Made by a program: the position numbers and the translations under genes. A stretch of DNA of 64,000 bases from Sphingobium sp. HWE2-09 (GTDB taxonomy: Bacteria; Pseudomonadota; Alphaproteobacteria; Sphingomonadales; Sphingomonadaceae): NCBI RefSeq assembly GCF_035989265.1, contig NZ_JAYKZX010000003.1, positions 2,046,001-2,110,000 of the forward strand, read 5' to 3'. Of the stretch, positions 7,805 through 62,739 are shown one piece after another. Positions within the stretch are counted from its first letter, which is position 1; the number at the start of each line of letters is the position of its first letter. The notes under the pieces are model-generated. The model saw nothing but the letters and a program-made list of their open reading frames with translations, searched no databases and was not told where the DNA came from.

Positions 7805-7872
7805 CGTGTTCCCGCGCAGGCGGGAACCCAGTCCAGCCGTTAGAACTGGGTTCCCGCCTGCGCGGGAACACG
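7805..7872. repeat. Palindromic repeat, family A (copy 2)
   Basis: Complete two-palindrome unit with CCCAGT and ACTGGG inner arms. It lies directly downstream of rsmA and before the pseudouridine synthase gene. Confidence 0.9.
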
Positions 7873-23926: not shown

Positions 23927-24006
23927 TGTGCCCCGGCGAAAGCCGGGGTCCAGAGTCGCACAGGCTGCGCCAGAGAACTCTGGACCCCGGCTTTCGCCGG
24001 GGCACA
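23927..24006. repeat. Palindromic repeat, family D (copy 2)
   Basis: Nearly perfect inverted repeat with arms GTGCCCCGGCGAAAGCCGGG and the complement. It also contains GGTCCAGAGT/ACTCTGGACC. It lies downstream of pyk and could act as a transcript end. Confidence 0.9.
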
Positions 24007-26236: not shown

Positions 26237-26303
26237 TGTGTTCCCGCGAAGGCGGGAACCCAGTTGATACGGCGGACTGGGTTCCCGCCGCCGCGGGAAC
26301 ACG
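26237..26303. repeat. Palindromic repeat, family A (copy 3)
   Basis: Complete two-palindrome unit (TTCCCGCGAAGGCGGGAACC and its partner) in the gap between convergent genes. Confidence 0.9.
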
Positions 26304-27355: not shown

Positions 27356-27423
27356 CGTGTTCCCGCGAAGGCGGGAACCCAGTTGATACGGCAGGACTGC
27401 ATTCCCGTCTTCGCGGACACACG
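27356..27423. repeat. Palindromic repeat, family A (copy 4, degenerate)
   Basis: First palindrome intact (TTCCCGCGAAGGCGGGAACC), second decayed (TTCCCGTCTTCGCGGACAC). Located after thrC. Confidence 0.85.
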
Positions 27424-31992: not shown

Positions 31993-32030
31993 CCGTCACC
32001 CCGGGCTTGACCCGGGGTCCCGCTTTCCCT
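31993..32030. repeat. Half repeat, family D (copy 3)
   Basis: Single arm CGTCACCCCGGGCTTGACCC with the following GGGGTCCCGC. The partner arm is missing. It lies in the rph-rdgB gap. Confidence 0.75.
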
Positions 32031-35505: not shown

Positions 35506-35540
35506 ACGCGTTCCCGCGCAGGCGGGAAGCCAGTGCCGAC
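35506..35540. repeat. Half repeat, family A (copy 5)
   Basis: One palindrome GTTCCCGCGCAGGCGGGAAG without its partner, between convergent hemW and the M56 gene. Confidence 0.75.
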
Positions 35541-44134: not shown

Positions 44135-44202
44135 ATGTGCTCCCGCGCAGGCGGGAACCCAGTTCTGCCCCTGATCTGGGTTCCCGCCTCCGCGGGAACA
44201 CA
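44135..44202. repeat. Palindromic repeat, family A (copy 6)
   Basis: Complete two-palindrome unit with CCCAGT and TCTGGG inner arms, directly downstream of the DUF885 gene. Confidence 0.9.
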
Positions 44203-44382: not shown

Positions 44383-44471
44383 CGTCATCCCCGCGCCGGC
44401 GGGGATCCATCTCCTGACCTCTCATCTCAATGCGACGTTGAGAGATGGATTCCCGCCTGCGCGGGAATGAC
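44383..44471. repeat. Divergent family A-like repeat
   Basis: CGTCATCCCCGCGCCGGCGG and TTCCCGCCTGCGCGGGAATG flank CATCTC-N8-CTCATCTCAATG. It is an inverted repeat related to family A and D cores. It lies right after aceA. Confidence 0.75.
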
Positions 44472-62038: not shown

Positions 62039-62117
62039 GCTGTTCGCGCAGGCGGGAATCCACAGCCGTCAAAGATAAGCGCACCCTGGAACTAGGCTCC
62101 CGCCTACGCGGGAGCAC
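62039..62117. repeat. Palindromic repeat, family A (copy 7, divergent)
   Basis: TGTTCGCGCAGGCGGGAATCC and GGCTCCCGCCTACGCGGGAGC arms around a longer centre, downstream of the GtrA gene. Confidence 0.8.
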
Positions 62118-62166
62118 ATATTATGCGCCAATACCGCCAGCCCGACCCCGTTGCCAACAAACCTCT

Positions 62167-62250
62167 CGTGTTCCCGCGCAGGCGGGAACCCAGTCCTGCC
62201 GCCAGAGATAATCGCTCCCGAGGGCCTGGACTCCCGCCTTCACGAGAGCG
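62167..62250. repeat. Palindromic repeat, family A (copy 8), next to nuclease stop
   Basis: First palindrome intact (TTCCCGCGCAGGCGGGAACC), second arm decayed (GACTCCCGCCTTCACGAGAG). It ends four bases from the nuclease stop codon. Confidence 0.82.
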
Positions 62251-62254
62251 CATC

Positions 62255-62548
62255 CTATCCCACGATATCCTCAAACAAATCACGCCATTGCGGGTTCATT
62301 TCTTCGATCAGGCGCAGTTTCCACGCCCGCTCCCATTTCTTTATCCGCAACTCACGCAGACGCGCTTCCTGAATGTCGTCATGGGCTTCGAACCAGACCA
62401 GAAAGCGGCAGCCATATTGAGCGCTGAACGCGCCACCGAAGCCATTGCGATGCTGCCAGACGCGCTGGATCAGGTCGCTGGTGACACCCAGATACAATGT
62501 GCCATTCTGTCCGCTGGCCATCAAATAGACATAACCCGGCTTGGTCAT
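62255..62548 (-). CDS. GIY-YIG nuclease family protein
   Basis: A 97-residue single-domain GIY-YIG endonuclease. The two half-motifs are PGYVYLM and GTLYLGVT. The conserved arginine and histidine are in LIQRVWQHRNG, and the catalytic glutamate is in LRLIEEMNPQW. No DNA-binding domain is attached. ATG 62548 is used. The gene is bracketed by family A palindromes four bases after its stop and about 14 bases before its start. Confidence 0.9.
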   Translation of the reverse strand: MTKPGYVYLMASGQNGTLYLGVTSDLIQRVWQHRNGFGGAFSAQYGCRFLVWFEAHDDIQEARLRELRIKKWERAWKLRLIEEMNPQWRDLFEDIVG

Positions 62549-62561
62549 GCCCAATCTCTAT

Positions 62562-62631
62562 AGTGTTCCCGCGCACGCGGGAACGCAGTTCAACCGTTCG
62601 GACTGGGTTCCCGCCTGCGCGGGAACACACC
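62562..62631. repeat. Palindromic repeat, family A (copy 9), at nuclease start
   Basis: Complete two-palindrome unit: TTCCCGCGCACGCGGGAACG and TTCCCGCCTGCGCGGGAACA with inner AGTTC/GGACTGGG. It sits in the 5-prime region of the nuclease gene. Confidence 0.9.
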
Positions 62632-62706
62632 ATCCCCTGTCAACGCACAAAGCGCCCCAGCGATATTATCGGGCAGAGCATATACCCTCACGCCCATACC
62701 CCACCC

Positions 62707-62739
62707 GTGTTCCCGCGCAGGCGGGAACCCAGTTCAGAC
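62707..62739. repeat. Half repeat, family A (copy 10)
   Basis: Single palindrome GTTCCCGCGCAGGCGGGAAC plus CCAGTTCAG, between the nuclease and the LytTR regulator gene. Confidence 0.8.

Follow-up and report, generated by a model that had tools for sequence, protein, structure and literature searches.

A small GIY-YIG nuclease of Sphingobium as the probable partner of the REPIN population that surrounds it

In Sphingobium sp. HWE2-09, a short GIY-YIG nuclease gene lies among copies of a palindrome, here called family A, and the locus raises the question of whether this nuclease recognises, spreads or maintains the repeats around it. RAYTs are thought to copy and maintain REPIN populations, and a first-pass annotation had likened the locus to REP sequences around a RAYT transposase, with a different nuclease fold. 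As set out in parts of two reports, REPINs and RAYTs are established as inverted REP pairs with a spacer in intergenic positions, in which the REPs adjoin one resident single-copy enzyme and enzyme and repeat are said to co-evolve (PMC3116915, PMC8049555). The features around the nuclease gene, in a window of 64,000 nucleotides that is the whole stretch of DNA analysed here, are as follows.

62041 to 62118: decaying REPIN 1, made of a half REP (62041 to 62062) and a variant REP (62092 to 62118)
62168 to 62250: decaying REPIN 2, made of an intact REP (62168 to 62196) and a decayed partner (about 62228 to 62250) that ends 4 bases from the stop codon
62255 to 62548, minus strand: GIY-YIG nuclease gene, 97 residues from ATG, single domain
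62330 to 62338, minus strand: codons for K71, W72 and E73, of which 71 and 73 are candidate base readers
62563 to 62628: intact REPIN 3, 66 bases long and 14 bases upstream of the start codon; a single hairpin of -31.9 kcal/mol as DNA, z -8.1
62704 to 62733: single family A REP

The 97-residue GIY-YIG reading frame proposed from the letters was borne out, with a Pfam GIY-YIG score of 45.7 bits against a family cut-off of 22.6. The catalytic set of GIY-YIG domains comprises Tyr, Tyr, Arg, His, Glu and Asn; among 34 sequences of the family, Y8, Y19, R29, H33 and N85 were invariant, and E66 was present in at least 90%. Homologues at an E value of 1e-10 or better numbered 1371. UPF0213 proteins (PDB 1zg2 and 1ywl) are likewise short, single-domain GIY-YIG proteins, but they are distant from the window nuclease, with E values of 0.00086 and 0.033 for the single sequence and 9.6e-8 and 8.2e-6 for a profile. 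The gene is neighboured by a LytTR response regulator and a GtrA-domain membrane protein. All seven orthologues (at least 74% identity) lie between the same two genes, one per genome at a single shared locus. Their median dN/dS was 0.09 (27 of 28 orthologue pairs, with dS near saturation), and orthologues of the window type are under purifying selection.

The first-pass annotation had described four family A elements here, with one half copy. The cluster is real but larger, since seven palindromes are present in the form of one intact REPIN, two decaying REPINs and one single REP. Exact cores lie at 62171, 62566, 62608 and 62710, variant cores at 62041 (three mismatches) and 62097 (two mismatches), and the decayed copy at about 62228 to 62250. 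The distances given for the inner copies hold: the gap to the start codon is 14 bases (62549 to 62562), and on the stop side it is the decayed copy that sits 4 bases away. Family A had also been taken to occur elsewhere in the window as isolated units; most of these proved instead to be paired in inverted orientation at a distance of about 42 bases (527/569, 7809/7851, 26241/26282, 27360/27402 with a decayed second half, and 44140/44181), and the sole single copy is that at 35511. The corresponding elements, with what relatives carry at the same sites, are listed below.

524 to 589: family A REPIN; genome G199 lacks it at the orthologous site (gap of 106 versus 6 bases)
7806 to 7871: family A REPIN, present as a decayed copy at the same site of G199; folds as one hairpin, -39 kcal/mol as DNA
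26238 to 26302: family A REPIN
27357 to 27422: family A REPIN, second REP decayed
35508 to 35531: single family A REP, without a palindrome of this kind at the same position in genome G163
44137 to 44201: family A REPIN; a different palindrome at that site in G199

With up to three mismatches allowed, the window held 27 family A matches, whereas 100 shuffled versions averaged 9.35 and reached 17 at most. Thirteen of 16 window cores were outside any ATG-started frame of at least 150 codons; the only such frame to contain the other three runs on the plus strand, antisense to the LytTR gene. The window also contains one pair of the CGTC-headed D family (44384 to 44471) and one C pair (23931 to 24002), families that match other nucleases of the genome. 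At 31997 to 32017, the intergenic site is occupied in the relative G163 by a different palindrome family, which looks like reuse of the site.

Throughout the 4.44-Mb genome, the core TCCCGC-N4-GCGGGA occurs 183 times as an exact match, versus six times for the reversed pattern. This core also picks up the CGTC-headed D family; the strict family A pattern has 91 copies. The abundance of family A is not due to chance. Strict tail-in inverted pairs numbered 24, with none in the control. Spacers of 18 nucleotides were compared in 21 of these pairs, the other three having a spacer of another length; they matched the consensus at 11 to 18 of 18 positions (shuffled mean, 5.7) and were split 11 and 10 between the two orientations. 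The agreement of the spacers with one consensus suggests that the whole REPIN, rather than the single palindrome, has been copied. REP and REPIN of family A both fold as hairpins, and the family thus combines the two inverted REPs, conserved spacer and one hairpin by which REPINs are defined. When ten palindrome sites of the window were set against the syntenic stretches of four relatives, six were comparable, each with one relative. At the four comparable family A sites, the element was missing at 527, 35511 and 44140 and decayed at 7809; as the identity of the relatives was mostly 81 to 87%, these comparisons do not resolve the exact element ends or the direction of change.

Bracketing by palindromes extends to other small GIY-YIG genes. 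The genome has seven GIY-YIG matches, one of which is UvrC, and the arm search covered the other six. Inverted arms of 27 to 39 bases, 87 to 100% complementary, bracket five of these (in locus L021 the arms overlap the frame ends); the five comprise the window gene and those nearest to it in type. For the sixth (L019), the arm search found no arms outside the frame; arms of 49 bases (88%) surround the GIY-YIG domain, with the downstream arm within the C-terminal part of the frame. The arms of this locus (L019:1426-1823) come from the CTTCGACTTCGCTCAGG repeat, a different palindrome class, and the locus adjoins an nrdR-like frame (named by eye). All six arm families of the genome differ, those of L022 and L023 having a common stem with different heads.

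The same pattern was observed in 79 related loci from several phyla, of which 75 had usable flanks (L039, L051, L102 and L103 were dropped) and were searched de novo for inverted arms between two flanks of 300 bases. With an arm score of at least 18, a cut-off picked after the scores were seen, arms were detected at 49 of 75 GIY-YIG loci, compared with none of 340 control open reading frames from the same loci and 6 of 750 random 300-base blocks; 26 of the 75 loci had no such arms. With a score of at least 14, the figures were 53 of 75 and 4 of 340. The outcome named beforehand as speaking against the proposal, namely that most homologues lack flanking palindromes, is the reverse of the 49 of 75 observed. 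Arms with a score of 18 were also found at 40 of 58 sphingomonad whole-genome loci (three records common to the 75-locus set) and at 169 of 229 genes in an enlarged census, which included four duplicate records and from which 5 of 231 loci (no gene hit) and 3 of 232 genes (no flanks) were dropped. One Flavobacterium metagenome-assembled genome carries four GIY-YIG genes within about 8 kb (L096:2000-10300), three of them with their own bracketing palindromes. On the protein tree, stem type required 28 changes, compared with a shuffled mean of 101 and a minimum of 93 (300 shuffles; the duplicates L135, L137, L138 and L172 and label classes seen once were left out). As the arms are physically linked to the gene, this agreement alone does not prove recognition.

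Repeat abundance in whole genomes was a second line of evidence, to which the first-pass annotation had already pointed. In a survey at the level of the taxonomic family, the strict family A pattern was found in only 4 of 149 genomes (91 copies here and at most two in the others), and the comparison was consequently shifted to the genus level. Four families were counted in 94 genomes of the genus, namely A, with a TCCCGC stem and a GTG head, and B, C and E, with the stems TCCTGC, CCCGGC and CCCAGC, respectively, and a nuclease was considered flanked when at least one palindrome of the family lay within 300 bases of the fetched gene. At least five copies of family A were present in 5 of 5 genomes with an A-flanked nuclease versus 9 of 89 without (p 3.6e-5). 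The equivalent figures were 21 of 22 versus 18 of 72 for family B (p 2.2e-9), 4 of 5 versus 11 of 89 for family C (p 0.002) and 10 of 10 versus 25 of 84 for family E (p 2e-5). These association tests ignore phylogeny, and as the 124 nuclease genes fetched are part of the hits, the groups without a flanked nuclease may contain undetected nucleases. Whole-genome counts also take in the copies next to the nuclease. With those subtracted, and against the same figures for genomes without, the tests gave 4 of 5 for A (p 0.0011), 18 of 22 for B (p 2.6e-6), 4 of 5 for C (p 0.002) and 9 of 10 for E (p 0.00036). For family C, a looser pattern gave 8 of 11 versus 7 of 83, beside the stricter figures above. 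Of nine off-family associations, six were not significant in Fisher tests; the three with p<0.05 paired A repeats with C flanks (0.022), B repeats with D flanks (0.0003) and C repeats with D flanks (0.004). The expectation that would have told against the proposal, that palindrome abundance is unrelated to the nuclease, was thus contradicted by a positive association in 94 genomes, but an imperfect one, as the 9 of 89 genomes with five or more A copies and no A-flanked nuclease illustrate. Among the exceptions, G181 has 36 and G210 has 16 family A copies, and no A-flanked nuclease was found in either. A loose family A pattern near genes had given no association (p 0.19 and 0.11); it mixed in the CGTC-headed D family, and the head-aware pattern was adopted for this reason.

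The orthologues at the shared locus differ among themselves. On one side, A palindromes and E73 occur together in the window genome (G000), G163, G199, G232 and G237; on the other, B palindromes and K73 occur together in G154, G235 and G170, with the G154 nuclease having B palindromes on its upstream side only. The numbers of A and B copies in the genomes are 91/15 in G000, 5/7 in G163, 27/12 in G199, 35/1 in G232 and 20/8 in G237, and 1/346 in G154, 0/42 in G235 and 0/98 in G170. The repeat populations of the genomes therefore go with the stem base of the orthologue at the syntenic locus, G163 being a weak case. The switch between A and B may have happened only once.

Position 73 belongs to a pair of residues, 71 and 73, that sit just after the catalytic glutamate 66 and predict the base x in the arm stem NCCxGC. 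The sample comprised 156 genes with such a stem (24 of 180 stems had another form and were left out), and L026, L027, L028 and L172 were left out of the residue work. For residue 71 with residue 73, K with N, E or R corresponds to C, K with K to T, and A with K to A; E, N or S with K, R or Q corresponds mostly to G, less consistently. When proteins at least 55% identical to the one tested were removed, columns 71 and 73 ranked first of 3828 column pairs, with 127 of 156 genes correct and a balanced accuracy of 0.76 versus a median of 0.08 over column pairs. Under the same removal, the base was correct for 19 of 20 genes with A, 70 of 75 with C, 33 of 34 with T and 5 of 27 with G, and the G part of the code thus rests on related proteins. 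No column pair clearly predicted the first stem base, N.

Trained on 121 sphingomonads, the code was right for 27 of 35 other genes and wrong for one, while seven had an unseen dipeptide; the division followed record names, and some unnamed alphaproteobacterial test records may be sphingomonads. Because 24 of the 35 test genes have x = C, the stricter part of this test comprises the six genes whose base is not C and whose dipeptide was seen in training; five of these were predicted correctly. After relabelling, the base most often seen with a gene's dipeptide was right for 147 of 151 genes, counted within the sample itself. Exceptions are L073 (KR with G), the dipeptide NK (four G, two C) and EN (one C, one G). 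On the Flavobacterium contig L096, two KK nucleases lie beside TCCTGC stems and a KN nuclease lies beside a TCCCAC stem (read by eye from the sequence), as the code says. Independent pairs on well-supported branches were too few for a formal test. Greedy pairing over all branches gave 14 pairs, of which 12 differ at positions 71 and 73 and one involves L166, in which the segment is missing; the 14th pair is the same at both positions, but its member L191 was mislabelled and has CCCAGC arms. The L166 nuclease gene (genome G220) is without residues 70 to 80, approximately, which is the code stretch, and its genome has one C-type repeat only.

Taken together, bracketing, family matching and covariation make it well supported, as far as sequence comparison reaches, that the nuclease recognises the palindrome that flanks it. 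The recognition proposed in the first-pass annotation accordingly gains from three sources, the arms at 49 of 75 loci, the family-matched abundance in 94 genomes and the two residues that covary with the stem base. We consider it probable that the locus represents a REPIN-nuclease system, in which a sequence-specific GIY-YIG nuclease would target the family A REP hairpin found next to it and throughout the genome; binding, cutting and spread are the predicted parts of this reading. One resident nuclease, inherited between the LytTR regulator and the GtrA gene, would be paired with a population of REPINs of about 66 bp, each with two inverted REPs around a conserved 18-nucleotide spacer. Residues 71 and 73 would read one stem base, and the nuclease would bind the REP hairpin and cut one strand when the DNA is single-stranded, probably on a palindrome exposed at the replication fork or in incoming DNA. 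Such cutting is probable because REP and REPIN fold as hairpins and Ssn relatives reportedly cut single-stranded DNA. Repair of the cut could then make or keep REPIN copies. The nuclease may also spread or maintain the palindromes, a reading suggested by repeats that differ at orthologous sites and by nuclease genes that are multi-copy in some genomes.

The Ssn nucleases, which we take to be the closest kin of the window nuclease, reportedly form a family of GIY-YIG enzymes that cut single-stranded DNA site-specifically and have a repeated target in Neisseria (Chenal et al., Nature Communications, 2025). The Neisseria Ssn protein is said to police single-stranded or incoming DNA at marked sites. 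By this description, the two would share a small GIY-YIG protein with a genome-wide repeated target, the 183 cores or 91 strict copies being the proposed target here; REPIN organisation, family switching and a two-residue code, in contrast, are not known from the Ssn family. A strong competitor, which we rate at somewhat below an even chance, draws on that policing role: the nuclease may recognise the palindromes without spreading them, so that they serve as marks for the control of incoming or single-stranded DNA (transformation, recombination, defence) and are multiplied by other means. Orthologues that are single in each genome, share one locus and evolve under purifying selection fit such a domesticated role. 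The dRS3 repeat of Neisseria, given in part of one report as ATTCCC(N8)GGGAAT with about 700 copies (PMC3898611), also speaks for this rival, as its core is that of the D family here. However, conserved spacers of whole units, repeats that differ at orthologous sites and duplicated nuclease genes look like mobile DNA, and a PADLOC search gave no match.

Mobility could also reside in the gene itself. Copies of nuclease genes at different sites have DNA identities of 98% in G181, 94% in G163, 89 to 91% in G225 (three copies) and 89% in G226, and these multi-copy genes favour mobility in some lineages. In 57 of 78 genes with both tails readable, the gene occupies the position of the REPIN spacer between tail-in arms. 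Both observations would fit arms and nuclease forming an IS-like mobile cassette, of which the REPINs would be deletion derivatives and the window copy an old, settled member. We regard this as unlikely, since the homologous block outruns the arms by up to about 70 bases in most multi-copy cases, such that the arms are not always the cassette ends, and since the window type is syntenic and present once per genome. Cassettes of the CCCAGC type (L222, L223, L229 and L230) show a conserved block of 487 to 507 bases that extends beyond the arms by 50 to 68 bases; in two genomes the outer sequences are similar, and this may be a true element end. A tandem array of three GIY-YIG nuclease genes with a period of 467 bases and protein identities of 91 to 97% was observed in genome G224 (L244:660-1900).

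That a RAYT or another HuH transposase spreads family A, with the nuclease as a bystander, is highly improbable. Y1_Tnp was detected in 23 of the 94 genus genomes (five matches in G154), and its presence was associated with family A number by a Mann-Whitney test (p 0.033), for A alone among A, B and C; by Fisher test it was unrelated to the numbers of A, B and C repeats (p 0.23, 0.69 and 0.53). The search of the window genome for Y1_Tnp (RAYT) gave no match despite its 91 strict copies, nor did those of G199, G237, G170, G194, G235 and G189, and in place of a RAYT gene beside the REPs there is the nuclease. Least credible of all is an effect of gene context, in which REPINs land in any intergenic gap and small gap genes are often bracketed by chance: family A is indeed common and intergenic, and the controls were open reading frames and random blocks rather than short intergenic genes of other kinds, but arms were almost confined to the nuclease loci and match nuclease type and residues.

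A sequence-specific nuclease paired with its REPINs thus resembles the REPIN-RAYT systems in its inverted REP pairs, spacer, intergenic position and single resident enzyme beside the REPs, as these are given in the parts of the reports cited at the outset, but the enzyme is a GIY-YIG nuclease and not a Y1/HuH transposase. The analogy drawn in the first-pass annotation therefore fits, in a genome that lacks Y1 matches. CGTC-tagged REPs, in the relevant portion of a 2013 survey, have a stem of 8 to 9 bp, a loop of 4 to 5 bases and a CCA tail, with heads outward in dimers (PMC3733652). Family A, with an 8-bp stem and a loop of 4 bases, shares this form, the CCA tail and the outward heads included. 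CGTC-tagged REPs differ from family A in the head, which is GTG here and CGTC there, and share the CGTC head with the D family (L022 type). These REPs, Neisseria dRS3 included, were said in that survey to lack a dedicated transposase, and the term "GIY-YIG" is absent from its text (PMC3733652). A literature search revealed, among the matches listed, no paper linking GIY-YIG with REP or repeat families, and neither the two-residue code nor the orthologue switch was among those matches. The new element here is that the stem base x in NCCxGC can be predicted from residues 71 and 73, though poorly for x = G.

We tentatively extend this reading to a broader proposal, attractive though still short of the better bet. 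Small GIY-YIG nucleases may be the missing dedicated enzymes of non-RAYT REP and REPIN families, the CGTC-tagged REPs and their kin as well as dRS3; each would keep its own palindromes by the two-residue stem-base code and drive their copying by cutting the single-stranded hairpin, and families would switch when the residues change. The enzyme that handles CGTC REPs was left open in the part of the 2013 survey concerned (PMC3733652). Should it prove to be these nucleases, a repeat class that is widespread in bacteria would acquire both a partner and a recognition code, and the residue-to-base code would allow targets to be predicted from sequence for many small GIY-YIG nucleases.
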